From a virus: 37,094 nt of DNA. Under the pieces are notes generated by a model. It had not been told where the DNA came from and made no database searches. It saw nothing but the letters and a program-made list of their open reading frames with translations. Below are positions 11,166-35,208 of the stretch, piece after piece. Both the position numbers and the translations under genes were made by a program. The stretch covers positions 1 through 37,094 of the IMG/VR virus record IMGVR_UViG_3300047546_001503; one strand, written 5' to 3'. The first letter of the stretch is position 1, and every line of letters begins with the position of its first letter.

Positions 11166-11339
11166 ATGCCAGTTTATGAGTACAAATGTTCTCAATGTTT
11201 TTCTCAGATAGAATTTGAGCGTGGATTTGGAGAAGATAGAGAACCTTCATGTTGTGGAGCAACAATGATAAGGGTTTGGAATTCATTTGGTATACAGTTT
11301 AAAGGTGATGGATTTTATTCAACGGATAATAAAAAATGA
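11166..11339 (+). CDS. FmdB-family zinc ribbon protein
   Basis: Fifty-seven residues. The family signature is clear: MPVYEYKCSQC at the start, a second Cys pair CC at 29-30 in place of the usual CxxC, and the closing GIQFKGDGFYSTD, which matches the family's G-x-x-F-K-G-x-G-[FW]-Y-x-T-D. FmdB-type proteins are putative zinc-ribbon regulators; function in phages is unknown. The altered second knuckle (Cys-Cys) may weaken metal binding. Its stop overlaps the start of the next gene (ATGA). Confidence 0.88.
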   Translation: MPVYEYKCSQCFSQIEFERGFGEDREPSCCGATMIRVWNSFGIQFKGDGFYSTDNKK

Positions 11340-12040
11340 AAAAAATAGAATTTATATGTCAAACTGGCAATTTTGTAGATGCAGATAAACCAGTTCCAGC
11401 AAAAAGTTTAATACCAGAATGGTATAGAAAAATGAAACCATATTTTGGTCAAAAAGATTTACAAATTGATCTTCAGGCAGGTATGGCAGTAAACAGAACA
11501 ATAAAAAAATGCATACCAGTACTGGATGCAATAACATCAGGATATATAATAACAACCTATGCTGATTTAAAAGTAACAAGAGACAATTATGACAATATTC
11601 CATTTTTCACATGGGCATCAACACCAAATAGCATTGATGCTGTATCTCTTCATTTCCCAGAACAAGTTGAAAATTATCCAGGAATGAAGGAGCCGACTAT
11701 ACCAAAGTTTAGAAATATTTGGACAATAAAAACTCCGCCAGGATACTCTTGTTTGTTTACTCCACCAGCACACCACGATACTCCATTGAGTATATTTTCA
11801 GGAATTGTTGATACAGATAAGTATGCATCTGCTGTGGAATTTCCTTTTATGTTAAAGGATCCAAATTTTATTGGGATAATACCAAGAGGAACTCCAATAG
11901 CACAGGTTATTCCATTTAAAAGAGATTCTTGGAAGTCGTACTATTCAAGTTCAACTGATGTGACTTTTGGCACATTTATGAGAAGTTTTTTTACAGATGG
12001 TTATAAAAAAATGGTCTGGTCAAAAAAGAGTTTTGATTAA
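11336..12040 (+). CDS. IPxWY/GTPIAQ family protein, copy A
   Basis: 234 residues, the clearest copy of the family. Ordered motifs: PVPAKSLIPEWYRKM (about 20-34), KKCIPVLDAITSGY (57-72), TPPGYSCLFTPP (about 137-148), SGIVDTD (156-162), VEFPFMLK, and GIIPRGTPIAQVIPFKRDSW (about 180-200), then GYKKMVW near the end. The blocks P-GY..PP, G-I-V-D-x-D and G-T-P-I-A-Q lie in the order and spacing of dUTPase motifs 2, 3 and 4 (PRSG, GVIDxDYRG, GDRIAQL). I infer a dUTPase/dCTP deaminase-like beta-clip fold, but catalytic residues are not clearly conserved. Confidence 0.7.
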   Translation: MKKIEFICQTGNFVDADKPVPAKSLIPEWYRKMKPYFGQKDLQIDLQAGMAVNRTIKKCIPVLDAITSGYIITTYADLKVTRDNYDNIPFFTWASTPNSIDAVSLHFPEQVENYPGMKEPTIPKFRNIWTIKTPPGYSCLFTPPAHHDTPLSIFSGIVDTDKYASAVEFPFMLKDPNFIGIIPRGTPIAQVIPFKRDSWKSYYSSSTDVTFGTFMRSFFTDGYKKMVWSKKSFD

Positions 12041-16000: not shown

Positions 16001-16288
16001 ATGAAGCAGCACCTTTGGAAAGATAATGCTTTATGTTTAGGATCAGATACAAACATATATTTTGATAGATACGAAGAAAAACCAGAAACAAGGCAGTTTG
16101 TTGATTCTCTTTGTCGCACCTGTCCTGTAGCAAAACTTTGTTTTGCTGTCGGAGTTTCTGGAAAAGAATGGGGTGTTTGGGGTGGTGTATATTTAGAAAA
16201 TGGAGAAATTTCAAAAGAATTTAATAGCCATAAGACTAAAAAAGAATGGTCTTATATTTGGCAGGCACTAACTACGGAGCAACAATGA
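16001..16288 (+). CDS. WhiB-family Fe-S transcriptional regulator
   Basis: Ninety-five residues. Four cluster ligands are C12, C38, C41 and C47 (C-x25-C-x2-C-x5-C), followed by the family turn GVWGGVYL at 58-65. The basic C-terminal tail of cellular WhiB proteins is present only in short form (SHKTKKEW). WhiB-like proteins bind a [4Fe-4S] cluster, partner with the principal sigma factor and are essentially limited to Actinobacteria and their phages, so this is the strongest host indicator here. It overlaps the next gene by four bases. Confidence 0.92.
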   Translation: MKQHLWKDNALCLGSDTNIYFDRYEEKPETRQFVDSLCRTCPVAKLCFAVGVSGKEWGVWGGVYLENGEISKEFNSHKTKKEWSYIWQALTTEQQ

Positions 16289-16995
16289 GAAAAAAAATTG
16301 TAATTACTCCTAGAGAAAAATATTCGGAAAATTTTTTTAATATAGTTCCAGCATCAGAATTTGTGCCAGAGTGGTACAGAAAATCTCCAGGAAAATACTC
16401 TTTTGCAAAATCAGAAATAGATCCGCTTGACCGTATTTCAGTAACATCTACATATAAAAAATGCACTCCATTTTTTGATGCATTAACAGCAGGGTATATG
16501 GTATTTTTAACATCAGATATTGAGGTGGTAAAAAAAGATGACGGCCAACCATTTATTCAATGGAGAACTACAAGAAGAATAATAACTGACCACTCAGATA
16601 TTCAATGGGAAGGTTTGCCATGCCCAGAAGGTTACTCTAAACATGTTTATAAGTGGCATAATCAATTCAATATAAATGTTCCAAAAGGATATTCTTTATT
16701 GTTTTTAAATCCAATAAATAGATTTGATTTACCATTTATGACTATTACTGGAATTGTTGACTGTGATAATTTTAAACTCCCCGTACATTTTCCATTTTTT
16801 ATCAAAGATAGTTTTTCTGGAATAATTGAAAAAGGAACCCCAATTGCACAGATAATTCCAATAAAACGTGATTTATGGGAAAGAAAACATGAAAAATATG
16901 ATGAAGATGAGTCTATGATAATGCCAGAAAAATATTTTTCTACTATTAAAAGAGCATATAAAAATACAGTTTGGGAACGAAAAGAATATAAATAA
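16285..16995 (+). CDS. IPxWY/GTPIAQ family protein, copy B
   Basis: 236 residues from the ATG at 16285, coupled to the WhiB stop. Family blocks in order: VPASEFVPEWYRKSP, KKCTPFFDALTAGY, VPKGYSLLFLNPINRFDLP, GIVDCD, HFPFFIK and GIIEKGTPIAQIIPIKRDLW, then YKNTVWERKEYK at the end. It retains every conserved block and the PxxRxDLP form that most resembles dUTPase motif 2. Coupling to WhiB and to the halogenase segment may be only operon packing. Function unknown. Confidence 0.7.
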   Translation: MRKKIVITPREKYSENFFNIVPASEFVPEWYRKSPGKYSFAKSEIDPLDRISVTSTYKKCTPFFDALTAGYMVFLTSDIEVVKKDDGQPFIQWRTTRRIITDHSDIQWEGLPCPEGYSKHVYKWHNQFNINVPKGYSLLFLNPINRFDLPFMTITGIVDCDNFKLPVHFPFFIKDSFSGIIEKGTPIAQIIPIKRDLWERKHEKYDEDESMIMPEKYFSTIKRAYKNTVWERKEYK

Positions 16996-20788: not shown

Positions 20789-20978
20789 TGCTAGAGGGAT
20801 TCCAACATGTGAGTGCCCCAATTGCGGTGGAACACTTTTTAAAGCATTAGTAGCATTTGATCCAGAAACATATACAATTGGCATGTATCATCTTGATATA
20901 GAGTGTCATACATGTGGAACATTTGCAACTGCTCCAACTCCACTAGATCAACCAGGTGAGGAGGATGGTAATGAGTAA
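20781..20978 (+). CDS. zinc ribbon protein
   Basis: Sixty-five residues with two Cys pairs, CPNCGG at about 13-18 and CHTCGT at 42-47, separated by a beta segment (KALVAFDPETYTIGMYHLDI). A classic small zinc ribbon. Ends inside the start of the following gene. Confidence 0.75.
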   Translation: MIDARGIPTCECPNCGGTLFKALVAFDPETYTIGMYHLDIECHTCGTFATAPTPLDQPGEEDGNE

Positions 20979-21684
20979 AGATATTTATTTTGTTGCACAA
21001 AACCAAGATATTGATATTTTGAATATGTATCCAAAACCAGCCAAGAACTATATTCCAGATTGGTTTAAAAAAATGCCAAATAGTCATCGCCAAATAAATG
21101 GCGATAAACGAGGAAGTGCAAAGAAATGTGTTCCTTTTGTTGATTCATTCACGTCTGGTTATATATATGAGTTACCTTGTGATGTTACAATAATGTATAA
21201 TGGCAAAGATCCTGGAACTCAACAAGATTTATTATCATATAAATGGGCTGGCCATCTAAGACCTTTATCAACTAGATTAGAAGAATTTGGTACAGAAAAT
21301 CTTTTTCCTAAATTTGATGGATATTATCATACAGAACTTCATTGGAATAGTTTTTGGGAACCAAAGACACCAAAAGGTTACAGCACAATGTATCATCATC
21401 CATCAAATCATTTTCATTTACCATTTCATACAATGACTGGCATTATTGATACAGATCATTGGAGCGTTCCAGGTCCAGTACCCTTTTTAGTAAAAGAAGG
21501 TTTTGAGGGATTAATACCAGCAGGTACTCCTATAATTCAGATGACTTTAATAAAAAGAGAAGATTGGGTTTCTGAAAAGTTAGAGTTTGACAATAATAAA
21601 AGAATTAGAGATAATTTTTCAGTAAGAAGATTCTTAACTGGGGGATATAAAAAACAATATTGGCAACGAAAAAGTTTTAGATAG
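20971..21684 (+). CDS. IPxWY/GTPIAQ family protein, copy C
   Basis: 237 residues from the ATG at 20971, with GAGGAGG about 7 bases upstream; the in-frame ATG at 20956 lies before that ribosome site. Family blocks: PKPAKNYIPDWFKKMP, KKCVPFVDSFTSGY, TPKGYSTMYHHPSNHFHLPF, GIIDTD, and GLIPAGTPIIQMTLIKREDW, then GYKKQYWQRKSFR. Compared with other copies it has a longer insert between the second and third blocks and an extra run of His. Function unknown. Confidence 0.7.
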   Translation: MSKDIYFVAQNQDIDILNMYPKPAKNYIPDWFKKMPNSHRQINGDKRGSAKKCVPFVDSFTSGYIYELPCDVTIMYNGKDPGTQQDLLSYKWAGHLRPLSTRLEEFGTENLFPKFDGYYHTELHWNSFWEPKTPKGYSTMYHHPSNHFHLPFHTMTGIIDTDHWSVPGPVPFLVKEGFEGLIPAGTPIIQMTLIKREDWVSEKLEFDNNKRIRDNFSVRRFLTGGYKKQYWQRKSFR

Positions 21685-27646: not shown

Positions 27647-28351
27647 ATGCATATAAAATTTTTACCAGCAACAGATGAAACGCATCTTTTTGTACCGCAC
27701 CCAAAACCAGCAAAAGAATACATACCAGATTGGTATAAAGATGTTAAACCAAACTATAATAGAACTTTAGCGCTAAACAATATGCTGCCTGATGGTCAAA
27801 CAGAATTAAACTTTAAACATTGTGCTCCATTTCTTGATAGTTTTATATCAGGCTACATTCAGGAAACTTGGACAGATATTTCTTTTGAAACTTTAGATGA
27901 TGGTAAAAAAATATATGCATATGCTTCTGGACCAACAATAATGGGGGTAAGAAGAGCAACCGATGTTAAACTTTCAGAATCTTTTTATAATACAGAGTAT
28001 ACTTGGAGTGTTAACTGGACACCAGTGCTTCCAAAAGGCTGGAGTATGCTTATAACTCATCCATTTAATAGAATAGACCTTCCATTTTTTACTTTAAGTG
28101 GAATAATTGATTTTGATCATTTTACACAAACATTTGCTGGAAATCTACCATTTTTTGTACAAAAAGATTTTAATGGAATTATACCTTCAGGAACACCGAT
28201 GTTTCAAATGATACCAATTAAAAGAGAAAACTGGACATCATCTATTGAAAAGCATGAAAAAGAATTTTGGGCAAAAAATTTTGCAATTAAAAATAAACAT
28301 TTTTATGACGGATATAAAAAACTTTTTTGGCAGAAAAAAAATTATAAATAA
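27647..28351 (+). CDS. IPxWY/GTPIAQ family protein, copy D
   Basis: 234 residues. Blocks: HPKPAKEYIPDWYKDV, FKHCAPFLDSFISGY, LPKGWSMLITHPFNRIDLPFF, SGIIDFD, LPFFVQK, and GIIPSGTPMFQMIPIKRENW, then GYKKLFWQKKNYK. It is closest to copy C (shared PKPAK-YIPDW and DSF-SGYI). It stands alone on its own leaderless promoter and is convergent with the leftward ssb operon, so it behaves as an independently acquired single-gene unit. Confidence 0.7.
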   Translation: MHIKFLPATDETHLFVPHPKPAKEYIPDWYKDVKPNYNRTLALNNMLPDGQTELNFKHCAPFLDSFISGYIQETWTDISFETLDDGKKIYAYASGPTIMGVRRATDVKLSESFYNTEYTWSVNWTPVLPKGWSMLITHPFNRIDLPFFTLSGIIDFDHFTQTFAGNLPFFVQKDFNGIIPSGTPMFQMIPIKRENWTSSIEKHEKEFWAKNFAIKNKHFYDGYKKLFWQKKNYK

Positions 28352-29917: not shown

Positions 29918-30649
29918 TTACTTAAATATTTTTTTTGACCAGTAGTTTTTTAAGTAGTGCCCAACTATAGTCCCTGCAAAATTTTTTTCTTGTATAACAT
30001 CATAATACTCTCCATCTTCGTAACAATCAAATGTTGATTCCCAGCCATCTCTTTTGAAAGGAATTATCTGTGCTAGTGGTGTTCCTTTTTCTACAATTCC
30101 ATTAAAGTTTTTTCTTACCCACATTGGAAATACCAACTCTAGCGTAGACTTATCAGTATCAACTACTGCTGGAACTGCCCGAAATATTAAATCATTATGT
30201 CCTATTGGTGATATGATTAAACACGAGTATCCTTTTGGAGTTTCTGGAATCCAGCAGTTTAAATACTTAAAGACCCGTGTATGAAAACCCTCTGGAGGAA
30301 CTATGCTGTTAGTATTTGGTCCATGTATTTCAAATATTTCTTTTTTAGTTTTCCAAAAAATATCAGCATTGCTATTATCAGAAACAACTTCAACATCTGC
30401 CCAAAGCGGAACAATATATCCCATACTCATTCCGTCTAGCAAAGGGGTACATTTTTTAAAGTTATGATTTGCAACTCTATTTCTAACATGAGATTTTCCG
30501 TCATTTGGATAATTTGATTCATCAAGATATGGGCTTGAATCTTTATACCACTTAGGTAAACTTTTTAACGCAGGGTATGGCTTTAAATGAGTTTTAAACT
30601 CAGTTCTACTTCTAGATTTGAAGTTAATTATTTTGTTTCCAATCCCCAT
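29918..30649 (-). CDS. IPxWY/GTPIAQ family protein, copy E
   Basis: 243 residues from the ATG at 30649. The promoter places the transcript start there, so the ATG at 30664, which lies upstream within the -10 region, is not used. Blocks: YPALKSLPKWYKDS, FKKCTPLLDGMSMGY, TPKGYSCLIISPIGHNDL, AVVDTDKSTLELVFPMWVRK, and GIVEKGTPLAQIIPFKRDGW. The AQ pair and D-x-D are intact. It is followed by two small membrane-type peptides in the same operon. Confidence 0.72.
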   Translation of the reverse strand: MGIGNKIINFKSRSRTEFKTHLKPYPALKSLPKWYKDSSPYLDESNYPNDGKSHVRNRVANHNFKKCTPLLDGMSMGYIVPLWADVEVVSDNSNADIFWKTKKEIFEIHGPNTNSIVPPEGFHTRVFKYLNCWIPETPKGYSCLIISPIGHNDLIFRAVPAVVDTDKSTLELVFPMWVRKNFNGIVEKGTPLAQIIPFKRDGWESTFDCYEDGEYYDVIQEKNFAGTIVGHYLKNYWSKKIFK

Positions 30650-30655
30650 ATAAGA

Positions 30656-30684
30656 AGTATACACGAACTTAGGTTATGTGTCAA
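30656..30684 (-). promoter_or_regulatory. consensus leaderless promoter of copy E
   Basis: Leftward TTGACA (30679-30684), 17-base spacer, TATACT (30656-30661), six bases to the ATG at 30649. It decides the start of the gene. Confidence 0.93.
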
Positions 30685-31281: not shown

Positions 31282-31473
31282 ATGATACATAACTGTATAA
31301 AATGTAAATCAAAATTAATTCCTATTGTATATGGCAGATTAGATCCAGAAGCAATAACAATGATGGCCAGAAATGAGATTATTATTAGCCTGGATAAGGA
31401 TAGAAGATATAATTCCTTTTGCCCATTGTGCGAAGAATCTTATGTGGATTTTACGGATACCCCGCAAAATTAA
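31282..31473 (+). CDS. zinc ribbon protein of actinobacterial type
   Basis: Sixty-three residues. C5-x2-C8 (CIKC) and CPLC near 48-51 frame a middle segment KLIPIVYGRLDPEAITMMA. The PIVYG-x(4)-E pattern between two CxxC pairs is one I recognise from uncharacterised actinobacterial proteins. Convergent with, and overlapping by four bases, the leftward 31655 gene. Confidence 0.72.
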   Translation: MIHNCIKCKSKLIPIVYGRLDPEAITMMARNEIIISLDKDRRYNSFCPLCEESYVDFTDTPQN

Positions 31474-31655
31474 TCTCTATTATCCTGATGATCTTCACAG
31501 ACAGAAAATAGTTTTTCCTGTATAGCCTTTATGCCTATGGACTTACCGCCACAAAAATAACAATTAGACATAAAACCATAATTGCGTTGGCGAATTTCGT
31601 CCAATGCTTGAATCAATCTTACATCTTTATACCATTGAGTATTCTGACTAGGCAT
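31470..31655 (-). CDS. small Cys/His protein beside the putative origin
   Basis: Sixty-one residues from the ATG at 31655, placed exactly six bases after a -10; the longer frame would run into DnaA-box sequence. A helical N-terminus (YKDVRLIQALDEIRQRNYG) and a metal-binding set CYFCGGKS ... VCEDH (Cys, Cys, Cys, His). It resembles small zinc proteins of phages; role unknown. Confidence 0.68.
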   Translation of the reverse strand: MPSQNTQWYKDVRLIQALDEIRQRNYGFMSNCYFCGGKSIGIKAIQEKLFSVCEDHQDNRD

Positions 31656-31661
31656 ATACAA

Positions 31662-31670
31662 ATTATAGCA
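31662..31670 (-). promoter_or_regulatory. leaderless-type extended -10 for the 31655 gene
   Basis: Leftward TGCTATAAT, six bases to the ATG. The DnaA-like boxes at 31674-31714 cover the region where the -35 would lie, which could allow DnaA to control this gene. Confidence 0.78.
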
Positions 31671-31673
31671 TAG

Positions 31674-31714
31674 ATATCCACATTTTGAGATACTTATCCA
31701 CAGGTTTATCCACA
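31674..31714 (+). promoter_or_regulatory. cluster of DnaA boxes
   Basis: TTATCCACA occurs twice (31694-31702 and 31706-31714), twelve bases apart. ATATCCACA at 31674-31682 differs at one base, and a further GTATCCACA lies at 31889-31897. All four are in the same orientation. These match the bacterial DnaA consensus TTATNCACA. Confidence 0.75.
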
Positions 31715-31859
31715 AAAATATATTACTGATAATATTATCTCATAATTATTGTGGAGGAAAATGGAGTAAAGTGGGGAATGGAGCATTTTTAAGAGGGGCG
31801 CTCGTAATCCCAAACCTTATCCTTTACCTAATCAAATTAGCCTTTACTTAATATATCCC

Positions 31860-31888
31860 CTTATACCACATATCAAATTGTTTGTCAA
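31860..31888 (-). promoter_or_regulatory. leftward promoter without a gene
   Basis: TTGACA (31883-31888), 17-base spacer, TATAAG (31860-31865), read leftward. It would transcribe across the region toward the DnaA boxes, with no reading frame until 31655. A primer RNA is one possibility. Confidence 0.7.
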
Positions 31889-32078
31889 GTATCCACAATA
31901 TGGACAAAACATCTCAAATACTGATATATAAAAATGTCCAAATTTGTGGAAAAATTGTAACAAAATGTTATAAAATGTTTTAAAACATATAGAAAATCCA
32001 GGAAAAAATATGAAAAGTTCGTAATCTTTTTTTATAGGTATATATGGGGATAGATAATGGGGGATCGTAATCTTTTTT

Positions 32079-32116
32079 ATACCCGCCCTTCGGGCGCCGC
32101 CGTTTGCGGCGGGTAT
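32079..32116. other. GC-rich palindrome in AT-rich DNA
   Basis: ATACCCGCC / GGCGGGTAT form a 9-bp outer stem. The inside can fold into CGCCC-TTC-GGGCG and GCCGC-CGTTT-GCGGC, so a cruciform is possible. It ends one base before the TTGACA of the hairpin-RNA promoter. Confidence 0.8.
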
Positions 32117-32145
32117 TTGACAAACACTTTAATACTTGATATACT
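32117..32145 (+). promoter_or_regulatory. promoter of the hairpin RNA
   Basis: TTGACA (32117-32122), 17-base spacer, TATACT (32140-32145). The predicted start at about 32152 is three bases before the hairpin. Confidence 0.9.
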
Positions 32146-32151
32146 ATATAT

Positions 32152-32196
32152 TACATTAGGATCAAGTAAACCTTTCTGGCTTGATCCTAATTTTTT
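32152..32196 (+). ncRNA. short hairpin RNA gene with anti-Shine-Dalgarno loop
   Basis: The predicted transcript is about 45 nt and is nearly all hairpin: a perfect 12-bp stem, ATTAGGATCAAG (32155-32166) with CTTGATCCTAAT (32180-32191), around the loop TAAACCTTTCTGG, then a run of T to 32196. The hairpin is thus both the whole RNA and its terminator. The loop holds CCTTTCT, the complement of AGAAAGG found before four lead genes of the right-hand module (33610, 35208, 35869, 37065). It could also just be a terminator for upstream transcripts, but the dedicated promoter argues for an RNA gene. Confidence 0.7.
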
Positions 32197-32208
32197 ATAT
32201 ATATGGAT

Positions 32209-32237
32209 TTGACAAAATTATAAAGATTTGTTATAAT
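32209..32237 (+). promoter_or_regulatory. perfect consensus promoter facing the repeats
   Basis: TTGACA (32209-32214), 17-base spacer, TATAAT (32232-32237). It reads rightward across the tandem repeats and then antisense to the leftward 32334-33130 genes. No sense gene follows. Confidence 0.92.
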
Positions 32238-32333
32238 CTCCGTGATTTTTTATATGCGTTCGTAATCTTATTTTCCTGGAAAAAATATTCGACGTTCGTA
32301 ATCTAATTTTGGCTGTAAAATTTTCGACCCGCC

Positions 32334-32612
32334 TTAGTTGCGGTCTGCTGCCATTTCTAATAAAACATTTAGTGTCATACCATCTAACACTTCATTTTCA
32401 TTTATATTAAGGGCGGTAATAAGAAGATTAAAGGTTTCATTTATATAAATTTGACCTGCTTCAGTTATTTCTGCTACCAAACCTTCATATAACATATATG
32501 CCATAGGTAAACCTAAATCATTATAGTCTATAAAATCTTCAAATTCTTTATCTTCTCTATAGTTCATCCATAGATCTGCTAATATAGTGCATTTTGTTTT
32601 ATAATCAGGCAT
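32334..32612 (-). CDS. small helical hypothetical protein
   Basis: Ninety-two residues, acidic and helical: TILADLWMNYREDKEFEDFIDYNDLGLPMAYMLYEG, quoted here as EFEDFIDYNDLGLPMAYMLY, then NLLITALNINENEVLDG. The L-G-L-P-x-A pattern recalls small proteins of actinobacterial plasmids and phages. Overlaps the gene upstream by 8 bases; last gene of its operon. Confidence 0.65.
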   Translation of the reverse strand: MPDYKTKCTILADLWMNYREDKEFEDFIDYNDLGLPMAYMLYEGLVAEITEAGQIYINETFNLLITALNINENEVLDGMTLNVLLEMAADRN

Positions 32613-34261: not shown

Positions 34262-34490
34262 CATCATCCTCATTCAATTCATAGTGTTTGTTAAACTTAT
34301 CTTTGAGATAAGGGTCATCAGATAATATTGCTATTTGTTGGTCTGCATAAAATGTACCCTCGTCTAGATTAGAACTATTCCAATCTTCAAATAGTTTTTG
34401 ACCAATTTCAATAACTGTAGCGTCTACTACCATTTGATTTTCATCATCTAGAAAAGAGCCACGGCTATTTAGTTCTAGTCTGTCAGCCAT
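34245..34490 (-). CDS. acidic hypothetical protein
   Basis: Eighty-one residues, very acidic (DDENQ, NEDDDDFLN). A central helix VVDATVIEIGQKLFEDW. Overlaps the Api92-like gene by 8 bases. No family recognised. Confidence 0.65.
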   Translation of the reverse strand: MADRLELNSRGSFLDDENQMVVDATVIEIGQKLFEDWNSSNLDEGTFYADQQIAILSDDPYLKDKFNKHYELNEDDDDFLN

Positions 34491-35208
34491 TTATTTGGTC
34501 CATTCTGTAGTCGGGAACATGCTCTTCGTCTAAGTATACTTTATGGATGTCACAATCTGCAACTATATCTAGGTCTGCCTCACCCATATAATTACAATCA
34601 CTGCAAATTTCTCCACAGTCATTTTCACAGTACTCTAATGTATTTAATGAATCACAATCTCTACACTTATTGTCATATGATTCTGTCTCTGTTCCCTCGC
34701 CATTCTTAAATACAATCTCACCACCCCAACCAGTCTCTTCTTCAAAAGATAAAGTAAAGACTAATTCAGGATATTGTTGAGATAGTTTAGCAATGGCCTC
34801 AGCAGGTGGAGACCAAGCGGTATTAAAACGGTATCCCAAATAATCATTAGATTCATCAGTTAACTCAGTTTCAGCAAATGCTTCATTGTCTACAACAGCA
34901 ACGTCCCACTTGGTTCCCCAATTGCGGACATTCCAGTTATACCAATCATTACCTGAAAAGTCTAATGGATTCTTGCTATGGTCAGGTTGGCTTTGATATA
35001 CCTCTTCAGATATACCGTCTTGCAAATGATTATATATATTATGAAATGCAAATACTGGATTAGAATATGTATATTCTTTAAATCCCATTTGCTTTGTTTC
35101 CATATCAAAGTTCTCATGAACCTTGGTAAATGGTTTATTAAGTTGTTCTTTCAGGGCAGGTACCGCTGGTCCTGAAATACTAAGGTGGTTATATACCCAA
35201 TTTGGCAT
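34483..35208 (-). CDS. Api92/YubB-like protein with C-terminal zinc motif
   Basis: 241 residues. MPNWVYNHLSISGP at the start and the later NVRNWGTKWDV and TAWSPPAEAIAKLSQQYPEL are signatures of the Api92/YubB (DUF1281) family with its ferredoxin-like fold, found on plasmids and phages. A Cys-rich segment follows (CRDCDSL, CENDCGEICSDC), a zinc-binding addition that standard members lack. The leader has CAGAAAGG. First gene of a five-gene leftward operon. Function of the family is unknown. Confidence 0.82.
   Translation of the reverse strand: MPNWVYNHLSISGPAVPALKEQLNKPFTKVHENFDMETKQMGFKEYTYSNPVFAFHNIYNHLQDGISEEVYQSQPDHSKNPLDFSGNDWYNWNVRNWGTKWDVAVVDNEAFAETELTDESNDYLGYRFNTAWSPPAEAIAKLSQQYPELVFTLSFEEETGWGGEIVFKNGEGTETESYDNKCRDCDSLNTLEYCENDCGEICSDCNYMGEADLDIVADCDIHKVYLDEEHVPDYRMDQING

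Follow-up and report, generated by a model that had tools for sequence, protein, structure and literature searches.

A predicted long-terminal-repeat boundary with putative host DnaA and MraZ sites in a freshwater relative of Streptomyces phage Karimac

Large lytic phages are generally assumed to carry a replication start of their own, and the cos and pac sites of phages such as lambda carry sites for host factors (IHF at cos). DnaA is also a regulator of transcription in bacteria. The described systems closest to the locus studied here are the genome ends of Streptomyces phages of cluster BE, and for BE1 pile-ups of reads were used to locate these ends (PMC5764925). The long terminal repeat (LTR) starts at AGTGTGTAAT[GA]/G (a slash marks the cut) in four of them, Karimac, Angela, NootNoot and StarPlatinum, and the Karimac repeat is 12,590 bp long and runs from 119320 (...GATAGTGTGTAATG/GTGCAGG...GGATCGTAAG). 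TCGTAA is found about 21 nt past the cut in Karimac, Angela and StarPlatinum, while NootNoot has TTAACA instead; all four BE phages have additional TCGTAA copies beyond this point, up to +676 and confined to one strand. DnaA boxes (TTATCCACA or TGTGGATAA) are located at -93 to -69 in the four phages, with only one perfect box in StarPlatinum. Two bacterial systems are also relevant: MraZ is a repressor that acts via boxes upstream of dcw (PMC8475190), and the DnaA-trio rule has been described for unwinding DNA (PMC8287927).

The DNA analyzed here (the window) is a viral fragment of 37,094 bp that comes from a freshwater-type actinophage related to Karimac (Stanwilliamsviridae). The window terminase is 54% identical to the Karimac terminase over 100% of its length, the WhiB, thioredoxin and DUF932 genes are on the same side of the terminase in both, and the order from WhiB/thioredoxin genes through a non-coding gap to a leftward DUF932 gene is the same. 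Megablast of a phage collection revealed no close DNA match to the window; many relatives among viral contigs were reached via the 34483-35208 protein and the SSB. A search of viral sequences for pairs of TCGTAATC within 30 bp was discarded, as its matches were mostly due to chance, although three of them (L014, L022 and L050) are relatives. Five window proteins of about 240 aa (11336-12040, 16246-16995, 20956-21684, 27647-28351 and 29918-30664) form a phrog_7084-like family, their relatedness being judged by eye and only 29918-30664 being scanned. A module of about 145 nt (31680-31822) was detected in dozens of aquatic contigs by blastn and an iterated profile. Its conservation is that of non-coding DNA (in contig L126, 86% over 102 nt), and its parts are, in order, at least two DnaA boxes, AT-rich DNA containing TTACTG, TGGRG decamers at 10-bp spacing, GGAATGGAGCA and TCGTAAT.

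The preliminary description of this DNA proposed a host-DnaA-dependent replication origin, and the sequence features that it named are indeed present at the positions given. The gene-free AT-rich stretch is real (31656-32333, GC content 31.0% vs 34.3% for the window) and lies between the leftward genes 31470-31655 and 32334-32612; its left limit presumes that the left gene starts at ATG, since an 81-aa TTG reading would reach 31715. The genes to the right are all leftward, as stated. Two perfect TTATCCACA boxes, 12 bp apart from start to start, were confirmed on the plus strand at 31694-31702 and 31706-31714 (starting at -87 and -75 from the predicted terminus), as were two one-mismatch boxes on the same strand, ATATCCACA at 31674-31682 and GTATCCACA at 31889-31897, the latter adjoining a minus-strand promoter. 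The five TCGTAATC copies are also real, all on the plus strand (5 vs 0.014 expected in the region): 31802-31809, which is at +22 and part of the terminus signal, 32019-32026 with TCCAGGAAAAAATAT just before it, 32065-32072, 32260-32267, and 32296-32303 with TCCTGGAAAAAATAT just before it. Two further copies in the window are inside genes. The reported GC palindrome was correct in that cruciform-capable GC DNA exists, but it consists of two adjacent hairpins (32084-32112, DNA fold z = -3.0). A third one-mismatch box (31945-31953, minus strand) had been missed, and so had the TGGRG array, a hairpin-terminator RNA with covariation in its stem, and three sigma70 promoters of near-perfect sequence.

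One of these promoters (TTGACA-17-TATAAG, 31860-31888, minus strand) would read leftward through the terminus, the MraZ box and the DnaA boxes, and a minus-strand promoter occurs at a similar place in most relatives. The other two are on the plus strand, TTGACA-17-TATACT at 32117-32145 and the perfect TTGACA-17-TATAAT at 32209-32237, 50 bp before the fourth TCGTAATC copy; promoters like these recur in relatives. A hairpin followed by a T-run (32156-32195, plus strand, dG -16.3, z -5.4) is a candidate short terminated RNA; across five phages its stem shows covariation (four pairs changed on both sides, 98% of cells paired). In the segment 32117-32195 the promoter is directly followed by this hairpin-terminator, giving a candidate RNA of about 45 nt, and its loop ACCTTTCTGG is invariant in five phages and anti-Shine-Dalgarno-like. 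An Rfam search found tRNAs only.

The preliminary description had given the region no packaging function, which proved to be an omission, as the same 150 bp are homologous to the physical end of a Karimac-type genome. Judging from this homology, the region is very probably a control region surrounding the left LTR boundary, where terminase would cut. From the ends of relatives, contig ends and nhmmer searches, the cut and LTR start were predicted between 31780 and 31781 (AATG/GAGCA with TCGTAA at +22; 31777-31809, plus strand). Where relatives share the end sequence GTAAT[GA]/G, followed by TCGTAA at about +22, the window has GGAATG/G and TCGTAATC at 31802. Two contigs of aquatic relatives, L200 and L205, break off shortly beyond the predicted cut, 8 and 13 nt to its right. 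When a profile from aquatic loci only was run against all 132 kb of Karimac (nhmmer), the best match was on the terminus (119226-119349), with an E-value of only 3.9. The search of Angela, NootNoot and StarPlatinum covered only a 14-kb stretch each, and in Angela and NootNoot the top match was the DnaA boxes and not a stretch across the cut. Homology to the Karimac end comprises only about 40 nt plus the architecture. The element shows the testable features of a Stanwilliamsviridae-type terminus together with the sequence features of an MraZ box.

Two observations on other phage ends are added here. In Rhodococcus phage NiceHouse (MT521992) the LTR starts at about 137296 with another one-strand repeat, CTTAATGT, and without a DnaA or MraZ box. 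The left end of the satellite MulchRoom (L505) resembles the end of its helper MulchMansion, though MulchRoom encodes its own terminase; the end sequence common to both is a similar AATGGGGTAT...TTCGTAAG.

For perfect TTATCCACA boxes, 5 were observed in the window against 0.59 expected, and a pair within 25 nt arose in 1 of 200 dinucleotide shuffles, while boxes with at most one mismatch were at chance level over the whole window (15 found vs 15.0 expected). Within 160 bp left of the element, 19 of 29 distinct relatives have 2-5 perfect boxes, the other 10 have none, and a single box was never found. Because the counts are bimodal (0 or at least 2) and the position relative to the terminus is kept to the Streptomyces phages, the boxes appear to be selected. 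In the window's own clade DnaA pairs are mainly at the terminus. Several clade B relatives without local boxes have a pair about 400 bp off on the other strand, in the near-complete genome G003 a pair lies 8.3 kb from the element, and L195 has two pairs elsewhere. In the remaining records without local boxes no exact pair was found, some of these being fragments and three near complete (G005, G009 and G012). The segment 31715-31748 (plus strand, 11.8% GC, conserved core TTACTG) is candidate unwinding DNA; runs of NAN triplets resembling DnaA-trios, judged by eye and a weak match, are on one strand and in some relatives only.

Seven relatives were searched for a DnaA gene and none was found, so the binder would be host DnaA. 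Matches to the DnaA-box part in one Actinomycetota class were located at dnaA-dnaN (L354, L355, L358 and L359) and in a parA-parB region (L357), the genes being recognized by eye. The presence of TTATCCACA at dnaA-dnaN of freshwater actinobacteria indicates that the host uses this form of the box too, and the window thus has at least two consensus boxes matching those of the host. We consider it highly likely that host DnaA binds the two boxes. Elsewhere, distant aquatic relatives (L134, L169, L173, L177, L183 and others) have multiple inverted DnaA pairs, in which (T)CGTAA often separates the two boxes and which lie at leftward early promoter/terminator regions, and another large phage, Pseudoalteromonas phage H101 (KR534323), has an intergenic tandem pair at 58619-58647 (E 9e-4).

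The decamers (GTGGAG-N4-ATGGAG-N4-GTGGGG-AATGGAG, 31751-31784, plus strand) abut the predicted cut and contain at least three TGGRG direct repeats at a 10-bp period (31751-31776) and a fourth part. They are of the type found in host mraZ operators. The motif AGTGGRGNNNAGTGGRGNNNAGTGGRG was scanned blind, with mraZ not named, over 84,980 bacterial genomes; a strict MraZ-box pattern matched no genome, and a relaxed one succeeded. Among the matches listed, 88 of the 104 loci with enough downstream DNA have an MraZ frame just downstream (median distance 41 nt), and the remaining 16 are nearly all pure tandem repeats. When the phage element was compared by BLAST with 296 genomes from a single class of Actinomycetota, most matches were mraZ operators, the best of them from small genomes. 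Freshwater actinobacterial mraZ operators match the phage motif over about 27 nt, and one operator (L343), GGAGGAAAGTGGAGTAAAGTGGGGAAT, has the identical 27 letters in phage L144. None of 20 phage records contains an MraZ gene, so host MraZ would have to bind, and we consider its binding to the decamers quite likely.

The MraZ box seems to be a separate module, since clade B has it some 60 bp to the left of the end signal. The termini of the four BE phages examined have no MraZ box, which indicates that cutting as such does not require MraZ, and no genuine MraZ was found in 41 Streptomyces genomes, where only five weak matches inside frames of 440-600 aa were obtained. With Streptomyces as the genus checked for missing mraZ, these data are only suggestive of an MraZ box that strictly tracks hosts having mraZ; one Rhodococcus phage has no MraZ box either. 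The possibility that the phage captured a host mraZ promoter along with DnaA pairs was dropped, because host mraZ promoters show only a mild enrichment of DnaA boxes (0.60 vs 0.18 per kb with one mismatch; 2 perfect boxes in 38 kb). A literature search, in which most subscription journals were not covered, found no report of MraZ sites in phages or of DnaA boxes in virulent phages.

What is seen in the sequence is AATG/G-N20-TCGTAA, conserved DnaA boxes, an MraZ-type operator, directional TCGTAA repeats and consensus promoters. On this basis we propose, with a probability of roughly 0.6, that the region is an LTR-boundary terminus carrying sites for host DnaA and MraZ in a freshwater Karimac relative. 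Terminase would cut concatemers at about 31780/31781 and package rightward. On the circular or concatemeric genome, in which the LTR is joined to the unique region, host DnaA on the two boxes would open the adjacent AT-rich DNA and let the phage replisome load, and the terminus might double as a DnaA-assisted origin or as a switch between replication and transcription. Host MraZ on the decamers by the cut might gate transcription through the terminus or be titrated as phage DNA accumulates, a role that we regard as rather doubtful. It is more speculative still that DnaA and MraZ operators at the genome end couple replication, early transcription and terminase cutting to the host cell cycle, or take the cycle over.

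That the region is a true replication origin is a tentative suggestion, to which we give somewhat less than even odds. It might instead be primarily a host-DnaA-dependent, iteron-like origin made up of the boxes, the AT-rich DNA and TCGTAA iterons, with the terminus coincidental or secondary; this reading, too, we put at somewhat less than even odds. Perfect tandem boxes beside DNA of 11.8% GC, directional repeats and the missing DnaA genes of seven relatives would suit such an origin, and Karimac, which encodes a helicase, a primase and a polymerase, has no initiator among its annotated genes. Furthermore, in three Loccivirinae (physical ends at 127573 in Gilson, 129009 in SparkleGoddess and 124823 in BillNye) the DnaA boxes and three TCGTAA repeats are found together, 5-7 kb left of the end, in another non-coding gap; because they are apart from the cut they are not merely packaging DNA, and a replication or regulatory role is favoured. 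However, cumulative GC skew, the check named in the preliminary description, does not reach a minimum at the element in any of six near-complete relatives, and two of them show a maximum there that follows gene orientation, by which GC skew is confounded as an origin test. The DnaA-trio match is weak, and 10 of 29 relatives have no boxes next to the element. Loss of the boxes from a retained region had been named as evidence against an origin, and this was found in part: L194, L195 and L144 have none, although L195 has its pairs elsewhere. Satellites of BE-cluster helpers, described as helper-dependent and without key replication genes (PMC10690885), have neither a DnaA pair nor the outer TCGTAA series, which is evidence against the DnaA pair being the only origin signal. 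No initiator family was found among ten window proteins, which include most flanking genes. Of the origin first proposed, the boxes that look selected and host DnaA as presumed binder stand, while the missing skew minimum and the patchy boxes speak against it; the element was not classified as a DnaA origin, because it lacks or only loosely matches defining features.

Alternatively, the boxes may control leftward early transcription or soak up DnaA and MraZ while replication starts elsewhere. The near-perfect minus-strand promoter reading through the boxes is consistent with this, the inverted DnaA pairs at other leftward promoter/terminator regions of distant aquatic relatives favour regulation, and MraZ is a transcription regulator in bacteria (PMC8475190 for MraZ), as is DnaA. 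But one or two sites per genome are few for a sponge before replication, and DnaA pairs of the window's own clade are mainly at the terminus; we judge this reading rather unlikely. Less probable again is a packaging terminus only, in which decamers and TCGTAA are terminase sites and any resemblance to MraZ operators and DnaA boxes is a coincidence. The similar end sequences of MulchRoom, with its own terminase, and its helper agree with it, as do the directional repeats of another sequence at the NiceHouse LTR start; the 27-nt identity with host mraZ operators, the separable MraZ box of clade B, and DnaA boxes that lie outside the repeat and vary in number argue against it.

Because the DnaA pair by the genome end is conserved in position, reliance on host DnaA can be tested directly in phages isolated on Streptomyces, Karimac among them. 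An operator for a host division regulator at the terminus of a phage seems to be undescribed in the searchable literature and would provide a concrete link between infection and the switch of division genes. Additionally, the end signal predicts genome ends for many uncultured freshwater phages.

Compared with known systems, the locus is most like the LTR ends of cluster BE Streptomyces phages, with which it shares the flanking gene order, the end signal, TCGTAA repeats confined to one strand, and DnaA boxes that lie 69-93 bp to the left of the cut, while those phages have no MraZ decamers and their paired boxes are inverted, not tandem as in the window. Like the MraZ box of bacterial mraZ/dcw, the window has TGGRG every 10 bp, with about 27 nt identical to freshwater actinobacterial operators, but its array has no mraZ downstream and is at a predicted phage genome end. 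Tandem consensus boxes followed by AT-rich DNA recall the basal unwinding system of bacterial oriC, from which the locus differs in its loosely matched trios and in not being beside dnaA, and it is a candidate by sequence only. In lambda cos and pac sites, too, directional repeats and sites for host DNA-binding proteins flank the cut, although the host proteins are others, long terminal repeats are predicted here and there is no sequence relation. DnaA boxes, AT-rich DNA and directional repeats occur together in iteron plasmid origins as well, whereas the locus has no recognized Rep initiator among the nearby genes scanned and its repeats are irregularly spaced.
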